IMG/VR virus record: IMGVR_UViG_3300046797_000001
Span: 1-29,391 of that record
Origin: a virus
Direction: 5' to 3' (one strand)
Length of the DNA stretch: 29,391 nt
The notes under the pieces were generated by a model, which worked only from the letters and a program-made list of their open reading frames with translations, did not search any database and had not been told where the DNA came from. The position numbers and the translations under genes are program-made. Numbering within the stretch: the first letter of the stretch is position 1; each line of letters starts with the position of its first letter. Shown one piece after another: positions 10,650 through 18,977 of the stretch.

Positions 10650-11630
10650 TTATAGCGCCGTAATTGTATTCACCACTTCAATGTCAAATAGCTTGTTGCC
10701 AAACGATGAATCGTAGACAGGATTTAGAACGTATTCATAACCCCACACGCTTTCGACTTCCTGCTGGTTCATATCGATCACCTGGGCCGCAACGTCCAAC
10801 TGTAAGCTGTAGGGAATAGCGCCCTCAATAATTGCGCCAGTGGATTTCAGCCGCACGTACTGTACCGGGTTAGATGAGGGGGTAACGCTCGCAAACAAAT
10901 TCCGGCTCTGTAAGTTGTGCTCGGTGACGAAACCGGCCTGTAGCGCTGGCACGGACTCAATCGATTCCTTGAACGACTGATAAGTGGTGTTGAGGACACG
11001 CTTTTTCACCTGCTTGTTGCCGATTGAGAAGTTATAGCTCAACGCATCGGACACTTTAGTTGTGCCGATGGCCCCAAATGTCGGATCGATGTAAATGTCA
11101 ATCTCTCGTGGACCAATCGGTAGTTGCGCGATCGTTGTGGGACTGCTCGTGAGCGTAACGTTTGTTGGCGCCCAGCCAATAAGCGTTCCAGTAATGTCGG
11201 CCCCTGAGTCGTTCGCGGTGACCCCAAAGTCCGTTAGAAGGGAGTAGGCCATCTGCACGGCTGCGGTTGCGTCGCCCTCCTGAATGGTGAGCGTCTTGAA
11301 GGCGTCTGTGCCCGCCGCCGTCGGAGAGAATTTGTGTTTACGCGAGAGAGTGCCGCCGCCGGGCGTTGTGATCACACCCGTAACAATGGTATTCAGCAGA
11401 TAAACGATCTCGCTGTAGTTGAGTGGGCCAGACAGCGAGGCTCCGCCATCGAAGTGAATAATCTTGTTTGCAGTCGGAAGTTTGAAGCCTTGACTTGCAT
11501 AGCTCTTGTTATCAATCTCGGGACTGAGAACCAGAGACATTGACGGCAAGAGCCGGTTCGCCGCTACGGGAATACCGGGAGTGGTTTCTACGCCGACTTG
11601 AACCTGCCTGTTTACTGATCCGCGTCCCAT
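10650..11630 (-). CDS. Major tail tube protein
   Basis: 326 residues with a good ribosome site (TAGGAGAT, 8-9 bases before the ATG). It opens with RQVQVGVETTPGIPVAANRLLPS, the typical start of a long-form major tail protein, and contains mostly beta structure with paired motifs such as IQEGDATAAVQMAYSLLTDFG and DITGTLIGWAPTNVTL. These build hexameric rings that stack into the tail tube. It lies between the tail terminator gene block and the G/GT chaperones, the invariant place of this gene. The length is at the long end of the family, as in actinophage and GTA-unrelated siphophages. No cysteine-based or immunoglobulin-like extra domain is evident. Confidence 0.85.
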   Translation of the reverse strand: MGRGSVNRQVQVGVETTPGIPVAANRLLPSMSLVLSPEIDNKSYASQGFKLPTANKIIHFDGGASLSGPLNYSEIVYLLNTIVTGVITTPGGGTLSRKHKFSPTAAGTDAFKTLTIQEGDATAAVQMAYSLLTDFGVTANDSGADITGTLIGWAPTNVTLTSSPTTIAQLPIGPREIDIYIDPTFGAIGTTKVSDALSYNFSIGNKQVKKRVLNTTYQSFKESIESVPALQAGFVTEHNLQSRNLFASVTPSSNPVQYVRLKSTGAIIEGAIPYSLQLDVAAQVIDMNQQEVESVWGYEYVLNPVYDSSFGNKLFDIEVVNTITAL

Positions 11631-11657
11631 AGTGGTGATCTCCTAATCGGGAAGTCG

Positions 11658-11849
11658 TTATCCGTTCTCGCCTTTGTTCTCTTCAGGCGGCGGTAGTGGC
11701 GCAGGGATAAACTCAAGCGGCTGCGTTGGATCGACATCGGTATTTGGCGGCAAGTAGAACGAGGTGTTAACCCCGGCGTTGTTCATTACGAACACCTCAG
11801 TACGTGACGCGTCTTTGTTTACGCGAATAGTGCAATTTTCAATTCTCAT
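11658..11849 (-). CDS. Small hypothetical protein upstream of the tail tube gene
   Basis: 63 residues. Its ATG overlaps the stop of the tail terminator-like gene (ATGA) and the major tail protein follows after 27 bases, so it is part of the operon. The N-terminal 35 residues look like a small beta sheet (IENCTIRVNKDASRTEVFVMNN); the C-terminal half is proline- and glutamate-rich and probably disordered (FIPAPLPPPEENKGENG). I do not recognise a family. A minor tail or assembly role is possible from position only. Confidence 0.6.
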   Translation of the reverse strand: MRIENCTIRVNKDASRTEVFVMNNAGVNTSFYLPPNTDVDPTQPLEFIPAPLPPPEENKGENG

Positions 11850-12292
11850 GGCTGTCTCCCGATGTATAGTCGATAAAGGCCGCCGACGTTTGAGTAATAC
11901 TTCCCACTTCCGCTATCAAGCTCAGGTCGATCAATTGGTTGCTCTCTTCTGGCTGAGAAGTAGTAGTCACCACTTGGCTGGTAGACCGCGTTCTGCAAGG
12001 CAAGGTCAATCTCTTTATCCAGTTTGCGTGTAACTGCTGTTGGTCTTCCTTCATTGACAACCCTGACCTGGAATAGCGGTTGAGACTGAAGGCGGTTAGT
12101 ACCAAGTCCGTCAACGTCAGGCCCACCCATAAAATTAAACAGAACGTAAGGATAAGTCCGATTAACAGGAGGCTCAGGAACGTAACTATCGTAGATGCGA
12201 GTGCCGACCTGGCTCGCGATGTACGTGCGGGCGTGGAGTGCTCCGTACAGCCACGCTTTAGCCTGTTGGATCTCAGTAACATCGTCTACCAC
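11846..12292 (-). CDS. Tail terminator / tail completion protein (DUF3168-like)
   Basis: 148 residues. The pattern is that of DUF3168/gpU-like tail terminators: an N-terminal helix (EIQQAKAWLYGALHA), then VGTRIYDSYVPEPPVNRTYPYVLFNFMGG, a beta strand FQVRVVNEG, a helix DKEIDLALQ, and a C-terminal strand YSNVGGLYRLYIGR. Such proteins cap the tail tube and join it to the head. The gene starts one base after the HK97-gp10-type gene and sits two genes before the tail tube gene. The family call rests on pattern and order. Confidence 0.78.
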   Translation of the reverse strand: MVDDVTEIQQAKAWLYGALHARTYIASQVGTRIYDSYVPEPPVNRTYPYVLFNFMGGPDVDGLGTNRLQSQPLFQVRVVNEGRPTAVTRKLDKEIDLALQNAVYQPSGDYYFSARREQPIDRPELDSGSGKYYSNVGGLYRLYIGRQP

Positions 12293-12293
12293 A

Positions 12294-12662
12294 CTATTTC
12301 AGCGCCTTCAACAACCCGTTGTTTACCTGACGTCGGGCGGATTCAAACGCCGGTGTAGCGCTGGGCTGCGCCGCGCTATTGACTGTTCCGTACTCAACGA
12401 GCGCGTCATACGCCTCGTTGTTACCGCCTCGGTGTGGGTTGTTTGACGAATCGCAAACCATGACTACCCGCAAATGATCGGGCGTCGCCGTTTCTTCTAC
12501 ATGCGTCTGTTCAGCCATCCATCCCGTGTCTTTCGGTGCGAGTTGCTTTCGTAGCGACACGAACGAGTCCCCGCCCTCGTTCAGCACGTCCGCGATATTG
12601 CTCCGCGTGTTGCGTGAAAGCGCCGCGAAGTTAAAGCCTGATTTTCTAATCGTTACACTCAT
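12294..12662 (-). CDS. HK97 gp10-family head-tail joining / tail component
   Basis: 122 residues with the hallmark pattern of the HK97-gp10 family: an early helical region, LAPKDTGWMAEQTHV near residue 45 (the family's KDTGxLxxS motif), YDALVEYGT near residue 86, then QPSATPAFESARRQV, which is the PFLxPAxE-type C-terminal motif. The family takes part in tail completion or neck assembly. Its ATG overlaps the stop of the preceding head-closure gene by 4 bases. Confidence 0.88.
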   Translation of the reverse strand: MSVTIRKSGFNFAALSRNTRSNIADVLNEGGDSFVSLRKQLAPKDTGWMAEQTHVEETATPDHLRVVMVCDSSNNPHRGGNNEAYDALVEYGTVNSAAQPSATPAFESARRQVNNGLLKALK

Positions 12663-13060
12663 CGAACTTTTGTAGCCGCAACTTTCATAAAGACGTCCAT
12701 AGAACCCGTCAGCGCCACAGGGTTTTCAAACAATTGCTCAGGCATCCCATGATGGCCCTGAACCATGATTTGATAGTGCGGCTGAATTAGTTTTGTTCGT
12801 GCGTTTGCGCCCATTGTGATCTTGTGTCCCTGCGTTGTTATCTGCGCTCCGCCAATCTCTCTATCCGATCTTCCTAATGGATCGATCCTGCACGGTATGT
12901 CTCGATAGGTAGTCGGCTCGCCTTGTGTCTCTCCGCCAAAATCGTCTGGGACAGTCGCGGCCGGGATAATGAGATTGCAAAGATCGGTAAAGATGTCTGG
13001 GCCAACCTGATCGAGTTCCAGCCTTACATCTTCGATAACATCTGCTAGATCAAGGCCCAT
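12659..13060 (-). CDS. Head closure / head-tail joining protein
   Basis: 133 residues. The composition is beta-rich with the phrase TYRDIPCRIDPLG, then HKITMGANARTKLIQPHYQIMVQG, resembling the head-closure (stopper) proteins that follow the connector gene in siphophages, where a short barrel closes the portal channel. Its ATG overlaps the connector's stop as TAATG. I infer the role from the place between the connector and the gp10-type gene; sequence similarity alone is weak. Confidence 0.68.
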   Translation of the reverse strand: MGLDLADVIEDVRLELDQVGPDIFTDLCNLIIPAATVPDDFGGETQGEPTTYRDIPCRIDPLGRSDREIGGAQITTQGHKITMGANARTKLIQPHYQIMVQGHHGMPEQLFENPVALTGSMDVFMKVAATKVR

Positions 13061-13383: not shown

Positions 13384-13560
13384 TTACTTCTTTTCGGGCG
13401 TCGATGTTTCCGGCGTTGGCTTGTCTTTCAATACGCCACCTACTGTGTAGTTTTGATTTGGCGTCTGATCGGGCACTGTGCCGGAAAAGCCCTGCTCTGT
13501 TTCAGTGTCGACCTTCTTCTGCACTTCCGACGATCCAAGATCGTCACTCTTCTTAGTCAT
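13384..13560 (-). CDS. Small acidic/basic disordered protein, 58 residues
   Basis: An ATG at 13560 with a ribosome site AGGGAG 9 bases upstream opens a 58-residue frame ending in TAA at 13386-13384, immediately before the connector ATG at 13383. The protein (MTKKSDDLGSSEVQKKVDTE and on) is rich in Lys, Asp, Glu, Thr and Pro, lacks hydrophobic stretches, and ends in TPEKK, so it is probably disordered. Its start overlaps the end of the next upstream small gene by 8 bases. Tight packing and the good ribosome site support a real gene. Function unknown. Confidence 0.65.
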   Translation of the reverse strand: MTKKSDDLGSSEVQKKVDTETEQGFSGTVPDQTPNQNYTVGGVLKDKPTPETSTPEKK

Positions 13561-13726
13561 TGCTCGTATCTCCCTTTGAACCTTTGAGTAAGGGTTTGGT
13601 TTTTAGACAGAGTTGGCGCCGGGCGTAATCGTCACCCTTGCGTTTCTGTGCAAGGAATTGTTGAAACTCCCTGCGACGCTCGCACTGGCGCCGATACTCA
13701 GCCGCCCTCTCGTCTTCCTCAGTCAT
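13553..13726 (-). CDS. Small basic helical protein, 57 residues
   Basis: The ATG at 13726 overlaps the decoration gene's stop as TAATG and opens a 57-residue frame ending in TAA at 13555-13553. The product is highly charged (MTEEDERAAEYRRQCERRRE, then QKRKGDDYARRQ), basic and helical. Nothing about it suggests an enzyme. It is stitched between decoration protein and a second small gene by overlaps, so it belongs to the head operon. It could bind DNA or be a minor capsid-associated peptide, but this is a guess. Confidence 0.6.
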   Translation of the reverse strand: MTEEDERAAEYRRQCERRREFQQFLAQKRKGDDYARRQLCLKTKPLLKGSKGDTSND

Positions 13727-15795: not shown

Positions 15796-16296
15796 TTAAG
15801 TTTTGGAGTCAGATGTAACCTCCCGATTATCCGACACGCCGCGCACGGAGTGACCATTCAGAATCAGGCGAGTCAGGTCCTGCGTAACTGATTCTCCACG
15901 CTCTCTGATTTGCTCTCTGGTCGCCTTGTTGAACTTCTCGGCTTCATTAGCCGGGATCAGCAACTTCACGATTTCGCGGGCGTAATCAGCGAGCGGCGCG
16001 ACAAACAAATGCATCAGCTCATGAATCAGAGCCTCGCGTTTAAAGTCTTCCGTCTGATCCAGCCAGGAGGCGTAGACGTTCACCCTCGCCCACCTGTAGT
16101 CGTAATAGGCGGTCACGTCAGCCACGGTTGAGTCGTTCCCCGAATCATTCGCGCTCCACGCAATCCAAACATGCGAGCACCAATCCGGGATTAGATGGGC
16201 GAGGTCTGTAAAAACCCGTTCCAGCTCTACACGGATAAGAGGCGGAACCTCGTCGTAGATTCGTATCCTCTGCTCCATAGCCGCGCTACCCGTCAC
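15796..16296 (-). CDS. HExxH metallopeptidase-like protein in the head module
   Basis: Up to 166 residues, starting at a GTG at 16296 or at the ATG at 16278 (160 residues); neither has a strong ribosome site. The motif ALIHELMHLF holds His92, Glu93 and His96 (GTG numbering), the zinc-binding HExxH pattern. A Trp/Tyr-rich beta region precedes it (HVWIAWSANDSG, YYDYRWARVNVYASW), as in SprT-like and other small zincins where strands flank the active-site helix. The C-terminal third is helical and charged. The usual prohead protease position is between portal/MuF and scaffold, which is where it lies, and no serine-type prohead protease is visible. It may be an unusual maturation protease or an unrelated zincin. 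Confidence 0.6.
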   Translation of the reverse strand: MTGSAAMEQRIRIYDEVPPLIRVELERVFTDLAHLIPDWCSHVWIAWSANDSGNDSTVADVTAYYDYRWARVNVYASWLDQTEDFKREALIHELMHLFVAPLADYAREIVKLLIPANEAEKFNKATREQIRERGESVTQDLTRLILNGHSVRGVSDNREVTSDSKT

Positions 16297-16498
16297 CCCG
16301 GCAAAACAGCCTTACCAGATCGCGTACTTTGCCCCTGTTCTCTGGCGTAACTTCAAAGACCACCCCACGCTTCATCTCGCGAAAAAAGTCAATCGGGCTG
16401 GTTGTGTCTCTTAAACTCCAGAGAATTCGCTGGATGATGAAGTCGCATTCCGCATCCGTTAATTGAGATTTATCTGGCTGTGGCTGAGCTTTTGGCAT
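16286..16498 (-). CDS. Small hypothetical protein, 70 residues
   Basis: 70 residues, helical (LTDAECDFIIQRILWSLRDT, then RGKVRDLVRLFCRG). No family is recognised. It follows a 99-base gap with a stem-loop and overlaps the possible GTG start of the metallopeptidase-like gene by 11 bases. No ribosome binding site is evident before its ATG, so its start may be controlled by the upstream structure or be wrong. Confidence 0.5.
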   Translation of the reverse strand: MPKAQPQPDKSQLTDAECDFIIQRILWSLRDTTSPIDFFREMKRGVVFEVTPENRGKVRDLVRLFCRGDG

Positions 16499-16535
16499 CG
16501 GTGAAGGATGCTAACTAAACGCGGAGGTTTATTTT

Positions 16536-16576
16536 TGACAGTCTAAGAGGCGGCCCTGAAACGTGTCACCGCCTCT
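16536..16576. other. Stem-loop / possible pseudoknot in the 99-base gap before the 70-residue gene
   Basis: AGAGGCGG (16546-16553) is perfectly complementary to CCGCCTCT (16569-16576), an 8-bp stem with a 15-base loop. TGACA (16536-16540) can also pair with TGTCA (16564-16568), which would make a pseudoknot with the first stem. There is no T-run after it on either strand, so it is not an ordinary terminator. The rest of the 16499-16597 gap holds nothing that I recognise. Confidence 0.5.
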
Positions 16577-16597
16577 GTTGTGCGCCGTTACGAAACT

Positions 16598-17473
16598 TTA
16601 TTCCAGTTCTACCGAGCCGCCATACGCCTCTTGCCCGCCTACAACGCCGCGGAACAGTTCAGACGTAGCAAACTCAGTGCCGTCAACGGAGAACTCAAAT
16701 TCACATCGGCAGTTATTCAAGCATTGTAGCGAGCCAATTTCAGCCAGGTCATCCAGTGGCACGAACTCCTCGGTGGCCGCGTCAACGCATTCCTCGCAAC
16801 TCGCGCCGTCTTGCTCGCAAATTCTGCGTCCGAGCGTAACTCCATTATCGCGCTCGCGCTCCAGCATTTCCATTTCGTGAGTCGTCCAAATGGCGTTCGG
16901 ATACATCTCTGCGCGGGGCTCAATAGTTCCCCCAATCAGGAATCCCGCCTCTGGGCCTACATTTATGGGAAGTTCCGAGCCAACAACTTCAATCACAGAC
17001 TGTTTTGCGATTGTAGCCGCTTCAGATGGGGGCGCGGTGAAGAGTGCTCGGGCTACCCGCTCTCTTATCTCGGCTTGGGCATCAGGAAACTCTTTCGCTA
17101 CTGCGATCGCAACCTTATTCGCGATCATGTCCACAGCCTTAAACGACGCTTCCACTTCCGACTCAAATTCCGCGAGATACCCGAGCTCGGAAAAGATTCG
17201 TTCATTGATTCTTCCCCACCTAACCGCATTCATCTGTTCTTCACCACCATAGGCTATGGTTCCAGCAATGGAATGCCAGCCTGTGATCTTCGACTCCATA
17301 AACTTGAAGAACTCAGCGGGAAGGAAACTACCAGTAATGAGTTTTTGAGCGGCTTTGACAACTAACTGCTGTTCATGAGTGATAAATTCGTCGATGTACT
17401 TTCTTACTTGGCGGGGAGGGATAACGCGGTTGCGATCATCAAGGTAAAGACGACGTTTGGGATCGAACTTCAT
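16598..17473 (-). CDS. MuF-like minor head (head morphogenesis) protein
   Basis: 291 residues. The N-terminal two-thirds are helical (EQQLVVKAAQKLITGSFLPA, ITGWHSIAGTIAYGGEEQ, AEIRERVARALFTAPPSEAA). The C-terminal part has a cysteine cluster: Cys219, Cys226, Cys229, then LQCLNNCRCEF with Cys251, Cys255 and Cys257. This matches the MuF C-terminal motif with a Cys/Asp pattern followed by a CRC-type end. Such proteins sit inside the capsid near the portal. The ATG at 17473 has no clear ribosome site, and the upstream 130-base gap holds the RNA-like fold at 17491-17600. Confidence 0.85.
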   Translation of the reverse strand: MKFDPKRRLYLDDRNRVIPPRQVRKYIDEFITHEQQLVVKAAQKLITGSFLPAEFFKFMESKITGWHSIAGTIAYGGEEQMNAVRWGRINERIFSELGYLAEFESEVEASFKAVDMIANKVAIAVAKEFPDAQAEIRERVARALFTAPPSEAATIAKQSVIEVVGSELPINVGPEAGFLIGGTIEPRAEMYPNAIWTTHEMEMLERERDNGVTLGRRICEQDGASCEECVDAATEEFVPLDDLAEIGSLQCLNNCRCEFEFSVDGTEFATSELFRGVVGGQEAYGGSVELE

Positions 17474-17485
17474 CAGGGCTATAAT
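17457..17485 (+). promoter_or_regulatory. Plus-strand sigma70-like promoter pointing into the RNA-like region
   Basis: TTGGGA (17457-17462, 4 of 6 to TTGACA) and a perfect TATAAT (17480-17485) are exactly 17 bases apart. The predicted start, about 7 bases past the -10 box, falls at 17491-17493, the first bases of the closing helix of the fold that follows. The rest of the operon runs on the opposite strand, so this promoter cannot serve the neighbouring head genes. Confidence 0.6.
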
Positions 17486-17490
17486 TCGTC

Positions 17491-17600
17491 TGGCTGATAG
17501 CTGCGCGGAAGGTCGCGCTCGAAAGAGCTAGGTAAAATACGGGCAGGCAACCTAGCAACGAAAGCCCGTTAAGTCGGTATCAAGTCCGACCTATCAGTCA
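17491..17600 (+). ncRNA. Candidate structured noncoding RNA with pseudoknot, between portal and MuF genes
   Basis: The 110 bases fill the only large gap in the head operon. Pairings seen: closing helix 17491-17500 with 17591-17600 (10 bp, with one G-U at 17493/17598); hairpin 17503-17507 with 17514-17518; helix 17527-17533 with 17550-17556 (7 bp); helix 17539-17544 with 17564-17569 (6 bp), crossing the previous one as an H-type pseudoknot; hairpin 17573-17577 with 17586-17590 directly against the closing helix. The G-U would be a C-A mismatch in the minus-strand RNA, and a GAAA loop option (17517-17528) exists on the plus strand, so the plus strand is favoured. The last hairpin loop, TATCAAGT, is one base longer than a tRNA T-loop. 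No T-run follows, so the 3' end would need processing. Function unknown. Confidence 0.6.
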
Positions 17601-17603
17601 CCT

Positions 17604-18977
17604 TCACGCATTAACCACCTTCGCCCCAAACAACGAGGCCACATTCGGCGGCGCGCTCTGTATTGCGCCCTTAGCTGTCAATGCTCCATTCGCCGCGTTC
17701 TTAGCCCGCTCCTGGGTAAACCTCTCAATCTCGGCATCCGTGTAGCCAATTTCTTTCTGAACCGTTTCCATGTCAACCCCAAGACTGGTTACTTTTGTGA
17801 CTGCGTTATTAATCTGGTTCGTCTCGTCTCTCGGAGTAGTGTCGATCCATGTCGTCTCAGGCTCAGCGTCCTGAATGCCCATAATCTGTAAGGCAAATCT
17901 CATCACATCAGACCACACCATGCCCCAAGCTTCTTGTCTGTCTTCTACCTTAGCGAGTAACGGAGCCTCAGCCGTCTTCATTGATTCGCCGCTTGGCGGC
18001 GTGCCCTCTAAGGTGAAGTGATGCAGGGGTGTGCGTGAGACGCGTGCGATCTCTTTGCGAAAGTCGTTTATGACGGCGACGAATTGCGTGAGATCGCCAG
18101 TAGGAAACGCGCCAAATTCAGCTTTTTCGCTCGTTGTTCCCCACACGCCGCCGGCCATTAATTTGTATTTCGCTGACGCTTCCTCTGGTGACATATCCTC
18201 CAGGCCAATAGCCCAGCGTTGTGGTAGTCCGTGAAACTCCGAGCCGACTAACATATCTGCAATCGACTTATTCAACGCATCCTGTAAGGGAATTGCTTCT
18301 GCCAGTTCGCTCTTGCCGAGCATTCCCACACTAGTTCTATTACCAAAGTGGAATACAGGAACCTTGTCGTAAGGATTATCAAGCGGCCACGCCTCTCCGT
18401 CGACCTCGAAAGGAATAAACCCCCGACTCGTACTCGGCATTCCGCCCTGCAATTTGTTTCGCGTGATGTACTTCTCAATCACGTCAGGGTAATAGAGATT
18501 TATTCGAGCGTAGTTATCTGCCGTGATCCACGCCTTAGCGGCTTTGATGATGTAGCCAGGTTGTTCATCGTCGTATTGAATAACGACTCGTGAGGCGCGA
18601 TTAGGGTAGAGAATTGGAATACCTTCGGCGTCAGGCCAGACAACGATATACGCATCGCCTTCGATGAACGAATCAAGGTGCACCTCGGCGGCTCGCTTCC
18701 TCATGCGATTGCGACGCCAGATTTCCGCCGCCCGATCCATTACCCTTTGATCATCTATCGTGAAGGCTCCCAGCTTTAACCGATCGCGTGGTGTTTCCAC
18801 CACGACGGGCATCAGGTTATCGGCAAAGGCAGAGAACAACGATCCGAATGTGCTCTTAAACTTCTCAGTAGCGAATGAGAGCCGGTGAGTGCCGTCGTAA
18901 TACTCGCGAGCAATCTTGTAACCATTCGCCAGTCGCGCGAATTGATCTAACGCCCATTTGAGATCCTGTTGTGGCAT
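17604..18977 (-). CDS. Portal protein (SPP1 gp6-like)
   Basis: 457 residues. Features of the gp6-like portal family: an N-terminal helical start with LANGYKIAREYYDGTHRL, then FADNLMPVVVETPRDRLKLGAF, HLDSFIEGDAYIVVWPDAEG and a stem/wing region with LNLYYPD-type text (ARINLYYPDVIEKYI). A helical crown-stem region follows with SELAEAIPLQDALNKSIADML, and VSRTPLHHFTLEGTPPSGESMK, which is a strong portal motif. The dodecameric portal is the DNA channel and the docking ring of the terminase. Its ATG lies immediately after the large terminase stop. It ends 130 bases before the MuF-like gene, an unusual gap in an otherwise gap-free head operon. Confidence 0.93.
   Translation of the reverse strand: MPQQDLKWALDQFARLANGYKIAREYYDGTHRLSFATEKFKSTFGSLFSAFADNLMPVVVETPRDRLKLGAFTIDDQRVMDRAAEIWRRNRMRKRAAEVHLDSFIEGDAYIVVWPDAEGIPILYPNRASRVVIQYDDEQPGYIIKAAKAWITADNYARINLYYPDVIEKYITRNKLQGGMPSTSRGFIPFEVDGEAWPLDNPYDKVPVFHFGNRTSVGMLGKSELAEAIPLQDALNKSIADMLVGSEFHGLPQRWAIGLEDMSPEEASAKYKLMAGGVWGTTSEKAEFGAFPTGDLTQFVAVINDFRKEIARVSRTPLHHFTLEGTPPSGESMKTAEAPLLAKVEDRQEAWGMVWSDVMRFALQIMGIQDAEPETTWIDTTPRDETNQINNAVTKVTSLGVDMETVQKEIGYTDAEIERFTQERAKNAANGALTAKGAIQSAPPNVASLFGAKVVNA

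Follow-up and report, generated by a model that had tools for sequence, protein, structure and literature searches.

A candidate plus-strand structured RNA gene between the portal and MuF-like genes of a phage from IMG/VR

We analysed a window of 29,391 bases, the IMG/VR virus record IMGVR_UViG_3300046797_000001, in which genes for terminase, portal, MuF-like, major head and tail proteins follow in succession on the minus strand. The spacer between the portal and MuF-like genes is 130 bases long, contains no plausible gene, and holds a 110-base domain (Table 1) whose fold is very probably compact and knot-like, with one arm resembling that of a tRNA. On balance, this domain is probably an RNA gene on the plus strand. 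We hold with less confidence that its product would be a trans-acting mimic, and the complete statement, namely an RNA-only cargo gene with its own promoter and a closed fold that works in trans, is tentative and falls somewhat short of an even chance. The element is a good but unproven orphan candidate for a small RNA gene and does not amount to an established RNA family.

Table 1. Positions in the window of the candidate RNA, its helices, the promoter-like hexamers and the flanking genes
Feature	Positions	Strand	Basis or remark
Portal protein gene	17604-18977	-	phrog_104, E 2.7e-86
MuF-like gene	16598-17473	-	Matches phrog_24776 (function unknown); "MuF-like" is the name used in the preliminary description
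-35-like hexamer TTGGGA	17457-17462	+	In the first codons of the opposite-strand MuF-like gene
-10 hexamer TATAAT	17480-17485	+	Predicted start at about 17491-17493, from spacing
Candidate structured RNA, whole closed domain, 110 bases	17491-17600	+	Helices, shuffles, fold z
P1 closing helix, 5' strand	17491-17500	+	Pairs with 17591-17600
P1 closing helix, 3' strand	17591-17600	+	Pairs with 17491-17500
Hairpin GCGCG-GAAGGT-CGCGC, 5 bp	17503-17518	+	D-arm likeness (position, GG in loop) by inspection
Mini-hairpin UC-GAAA-GA, GNRA-type loop	17519-17526	+	By inspection
Pseudoknot helix S1, 7 bp	17527-17533 with 17550-17556	+	
Pseudoknot helix S2, 6 bp	17539-17544 with 17564-17569	+	Crosses S1
T-arm-like hairpin GTCGG-TATCAAGT-CCGAC, 5 bp	17573-17590	+	Abuts P1

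The spacer, its predicted fold and a promoter-like site

The preliminary description had called this spacer the only large gap in the head operon. That was wrong: in the gene list of this analysis, further gaps lie, for example, at 13384-13725, 16498-16597, and 11631-11845, and the head and tail region has other gaps of 100-342 bases. A coding reading of the spacer is disfavoured, as the longest open reading frame touching it, which begins within the neighbouring gene, runs for 40 codons. The G+C content of the element region (0.52-0.55) is like that of its surroundings, so composition gives no sign of import.

All of the helices described earlier are present: the closing helix P1, the 5-bp hairpin, the 7- and 6-bp helices of an H-type pseudoknot, and the last hairpin against P1. 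On the plus strand, P1 consists of 10 bp, nine Watson-Crick pairs and one G-U pair (17493-17598); as had been claimed, this single imperfect pair reads C-A on the minus strand. The crossing helices leave loops of 5, 5, and 7 bases, lengths that permit an H-type pseudoknot. With each closed by a GAAA loop, S1 and S2 have near-equal energies (-10.3 and -10.8 kcal/mol), so the prediction is a pseudoknot or, if the pseudoknot is sterically blocked, a two-state switch. The last hairpin carries a T-loop-like loop, written UAUCAAGU, runs straight into P1, and is the sole hairpin of its kind in the window.

This combination of helices is rare, with probabilities that are optimistic because the tests were framed after the structure had been seen: a strict descriptor, which called for 9 or more pairs in the closing helix, a hairpin abutting it, and a pseudoknot of 7 and 6 Watson-Crick pairs, matched this site alone in the window; scanned against both strands of 209 first-order Markov shuffles, each of the full window, it gave 0 matches. 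The T-arm-like hairpin, expected 0.15 times per strand, was observed once in the window; next to a helix of at least 7 bp its expectation is 0.01 per strand, for a motif written to allow an 8-nt loop. Taken alone, the pseudoknot is unremarkable, with 0.34 such arrangements expected on each strand in 29 kb. Across tiled positions, and with the pseudoknot left out, the fold z was -4.31 on the plus strand versus -2.33 on the minus strand, and the plus-strand fold ranked second of 1464 positions. With flanks included and 200 shuffles, the minimum free energy z was -2.41 for plus versus -1.37 for minus. The strongest fold among the tiled windows is at 15891-16000 (plus strand, z -5.3), inside the gene at 15796-16296.

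The promoter-like match TTGGGA-17 bp-TATAAT on the plus strand was confirmed as a sequence match, and it is the only site on either strand of the 29 kb window to reach 10/12 identities overall with 5/6 or more in the -10 box. A shuffled window is expected to contain, anywhere in it, 0.65 sites whose -10 box is perfect. The -10 box ends at 17485, five bases ahead of the start of P1 at 17491. The -35 box lies inside the MuF-like coding sequence, which we count against the RNA-gene reading. No intrinsic plus-strand terminator was found near 17600, the nearest terminator-like pattern being at 18029; an RNA from this site would therefore need processing, or readthrough would yield RNA antisense to the portal gene. 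All of these tests, the promoter search included, overstate significance for the reason given above, but their results agree, and three of the features point to the plus strand: the asymmetry of the fold, the G-U pair and the promoter.

The portal-MuF junction in related phages

The preliminary description had proposed collecting related phages by their portal-MuF gap, and at these junctions the element turned out to be absent, with other cargo or none in its place. Portal identity to the window is 71-78% in the closest phages and 75-78% in seven IMG/VR loci. The element is absent from the junction in L009-L012, L018-L024, and L184. Three of these loci, L024, L020, and L021, are syntenic with the window and have head proteins 90-91% identical (the terminase of L024 is at 86%), and between portal and MuF they carry an insert of small ORFs, 1.4 kb long in L024 and L020 and 1.9 kb in L021. 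In L022 and L184, no MuF match follows the portal gene, and the next gene is the one that follows MuF in the window. L009-L012 were found through the MuF-like protein, whose genes there lie downstream of portal-like genes, with no such spacer before the MuF-like start; in L009-L011 this start overlaps a TGA as ATGA, and in L009 the TGA is the stop of the portal-like ORF.

Since relatives carry other cargo or none at the same place, we read the junction as an apparent cargo site, with the RNA candidate as one of its occupants, seen in one contig only. The small ORF after the portal gene in L024 (MNQGD...) resembles the window's MREGD-stop at the portal end (about 11/15 bases). This likeness may mark where the element replaced an ORF of the L024 type, and is only a hint.

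Several other features of these loci were noted. The L024 cargo (11340-12790) includes a small ORF with CxxC zinc-ribbon-like motifs, partly common to L021, and a terminator-like sequence, GACCGGGATTTACGCTCCCGGTCTTTT, which is apparently the cargo's own. The MuF-like gene, intact in the window, is split at residue ~121 into two ORFs in L024 (13150-13400) and L021 (13670-14120), separated by 0.24-0.44 kb that holds unrelated small ORFs. A conserved promoter-like TTGACA-17-GATACA stands upstream of the gene after MuF in both (L024 14270-14310, L021 15495-15535). Directly after the MuF-like gene, the window has a minus-strand hairpin at 16530-16600, AGAGGCGG-TGACACGTTTCAGGG-CCGCCTCT. An identical loop is present in L018, L020, L021, L024, L174, and L175, although different genes stand just upstream of it in L021 and L024. 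The conservation may reflect an RNA element or else the encoded peptide, GGDTFQG.

A further locus, with a 64% identical head protein, lies on a 182-kb contig from one genome of the phylum to which an Acidobacteria MAG belongs, which suggests Acidobacteria as the host group. The element was not found in that locus.

Homologue searches and comparison with known RNAs

A scan of the window with Rfam 15 returned no family at the gathering threshold, and on the structure at E up to 10 it returned only a sub-threshold twister-P3 (E 1.5), a chance match at 15.5 bits versus the 39.9 required. BLAST searches of 50,697 phage and 72,556 plasmid records gave no significant match, and an exact search of IMG/VR with a central 19-mer found it nowhere else. 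Three loop-based gapped patterns with free helix positions were searched in IMG/VR, and their matches, when checked for complementarity, were due to chance; one loop pattern in GTDB genome contigs gave only chance hits among the matches listed. R1, a covariance model derived from this one sequence, found nothing convincing over the loci, the virus records and more than 900 genomes of two phyla. Its best match (31 bits) was a 12-bp tandem repeat, and its matches at 23-27 bits in the Acidobacteria phylum scan had no T-arm. Because a single-sequence model is weak and the loop patterns demand exact loops, distant relatives may be missed by these searches; no search gave a homologue or, hence, covariation, which we count against the RNA-gene reading. 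Literature searches on phage small RNAs of this kind turned up nothing relevant.

The element resembles a tRNA in that its closing helix is continuous with the 5-bp T-arm-like hairpin (0-nt linker), a D-arm-like hairpin, its loop containing GG, follows after a 2-nt linker, and the loop UAUCAAGU is close to the T-loop consensus. It differs in its closing helix (10 bp rather than 7) and T-loop (8 nt rather than 7, one extra base), and it has no CCA and no anticodon arm, the pseudoknot standing there instead. Like tmRNA, it combines within a single closed domain an H-type pseudoknot, an acceptor-like helix and a T-arm-like hairpin; it has, however, one pseudoknot, no recognisable tag reading frame, and 110 nt, whereas tmRNA is ~350 nt long. 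ARAGORN predicted no tRNA or tmRNA, by default or with introns allowed, and gave several low-confidence tRNA models at a lowered threshold. Rfam gave no tRNA match at E<=10 and no tmRNA match. We therefore reject membership in either class and speak of resemblance only.

GOLLD and ROOL are ornate structured non-coding RNAs, partly phage-linked. They are much larger than the element, which has no Rfam match. Large ornate non-coding RNAs such as these are treated in PMC12286853. Phage morons are independently transcribed cargo genes, and the element is like them in having its own promoter match, unique in the window, in being absent from syntenic relatives, and in lying at a junction that carries other small genes in those relatives. 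It is unlike them in that its product would be RNA rather than protein, no terminator was found, and its base composition is not foreign.

Proposed role and competing explanations

We propose that the element is a small plus-strand RNA gene, a moron-like, RNA-only cargo swapped into the portal-MuF junction. The host RNA polymerase with its main sigma factor would start at the first bases of P1, independently of the late operon, and transcription would run against that operon. The transcript would fold, in order, into a long acceptor-like helix, a D-arm-like hairpin, a pseudoknot in the anticodon-arm position, and, stacked on P1, a T-arm-like hairpin. Such a compact, stable RNA would show a tRNA-like elbow and a pseudoknot to a host protein or the ribosome, most likely acting in trans as a decoy or mimic. 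The sequence, the helices and their rarity, the promoter match and the lack of the element in relatives are observed, whereas transcription, its strand and ends, the fold in solution, the action in trans and the target are inferred. A more specific version is improbable on present evidence: a minimal tRNA- or tmRNA-like phage RNA, with the pseudoknot replacing the anticodon arm, carried as RNA-only cargo that binds either the host's translation machinery or a defence protein directed against tRNA.

The strongest rival, which we consider unlikely, places the function on the minus strand, where the structured spacer would set the stability, processing or translation of the MuF-like message relative to the portal message within the late mRNA, for example by drawing the next start codon near to the stop of the portal gene. 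It owes its rank to the MuF-like start, which has no clear Shine-Dalgarno sequence and has lost the relatives' overlap; given the ATGA overlap in L009-L011, translational coupling may need replacing here. The spacer would also lie within the operon transcript, most helices could form on either strand, and a 23-codon minus-strand ORF ends 5 bases before the MuF-like start codon. However, the minus-strand fold is weaker (z -1.4 to -2.3), with the C-A mismatch and competing helices, and a well-placed plus-strand promoter would be left unexplained.

That promoter is the centre of a second alternative, in which it matters and the fold does not: plus-strand transcription antisense into the portal gene would repress the late operon by collision or by antisense RNA, for instance in a lysogen. 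A single strong promoter-like site faces the operon, and because no plus-strand terminator was found before 18029, transcripts would enter the portal gene antisense, which keeps antisense control of portal, an option raised in the preliminary description, under consideration. We nevertheless judge this explanation quite unlikely, as it does not account for a closed, highly structured 110-nt domain at the predicted start, and relatives share the operon without the element.

Absence from relatives can be read differently if the element acts as DNA, either as a MITE-like insertion with inverted-repeat ends or as a site for protein binding, recombination or replication, with palindromes that fold as RNA by accident. 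The 10-bp inverted repeat at its boundaries would fit, as would the recurrence of the portal stop TGA at the far edge (TGATG, the MuF-like start), like a very short target duplication. The shared TGA is just three bases, though, the central 19-mer is single in IMG/VR with no significant BLAST match in phages or plasmids, and a MITE would not be expected to have crossing helices and a T-arm-like loop, so we regard a DNA-level role as doubtful.

Of the interpretations in the preliminary description, a structured RNA with a plus-strand promoter of its own finds support in the unequal folds of the two strands, in the one well-placed promoter and in the failure to match Rfam. A packaging role like that of phi29 pRNA is not supported: it has the neighbouring portal gene and nothing else in its favour, close relatives share the capsid, portal and terminase genes (the terminase of L024 being 86% identical) and lack the element, which is thus not conserved with the packaging genes of the phage group, and the Rfam pRNA model gave no match even at E<=10, leaving this role very improbable.

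If the RNA is made, it would represent a type of structured RNA absent from Rfam 15, and a case of phage cargo that encodes an RNA, possibly a tRNA mimic, in place of a protein. The portal-MuF junction of this phage group is also marked out as an apparent cargo site at which to seek other small genes, whether they encode protein or RNA.
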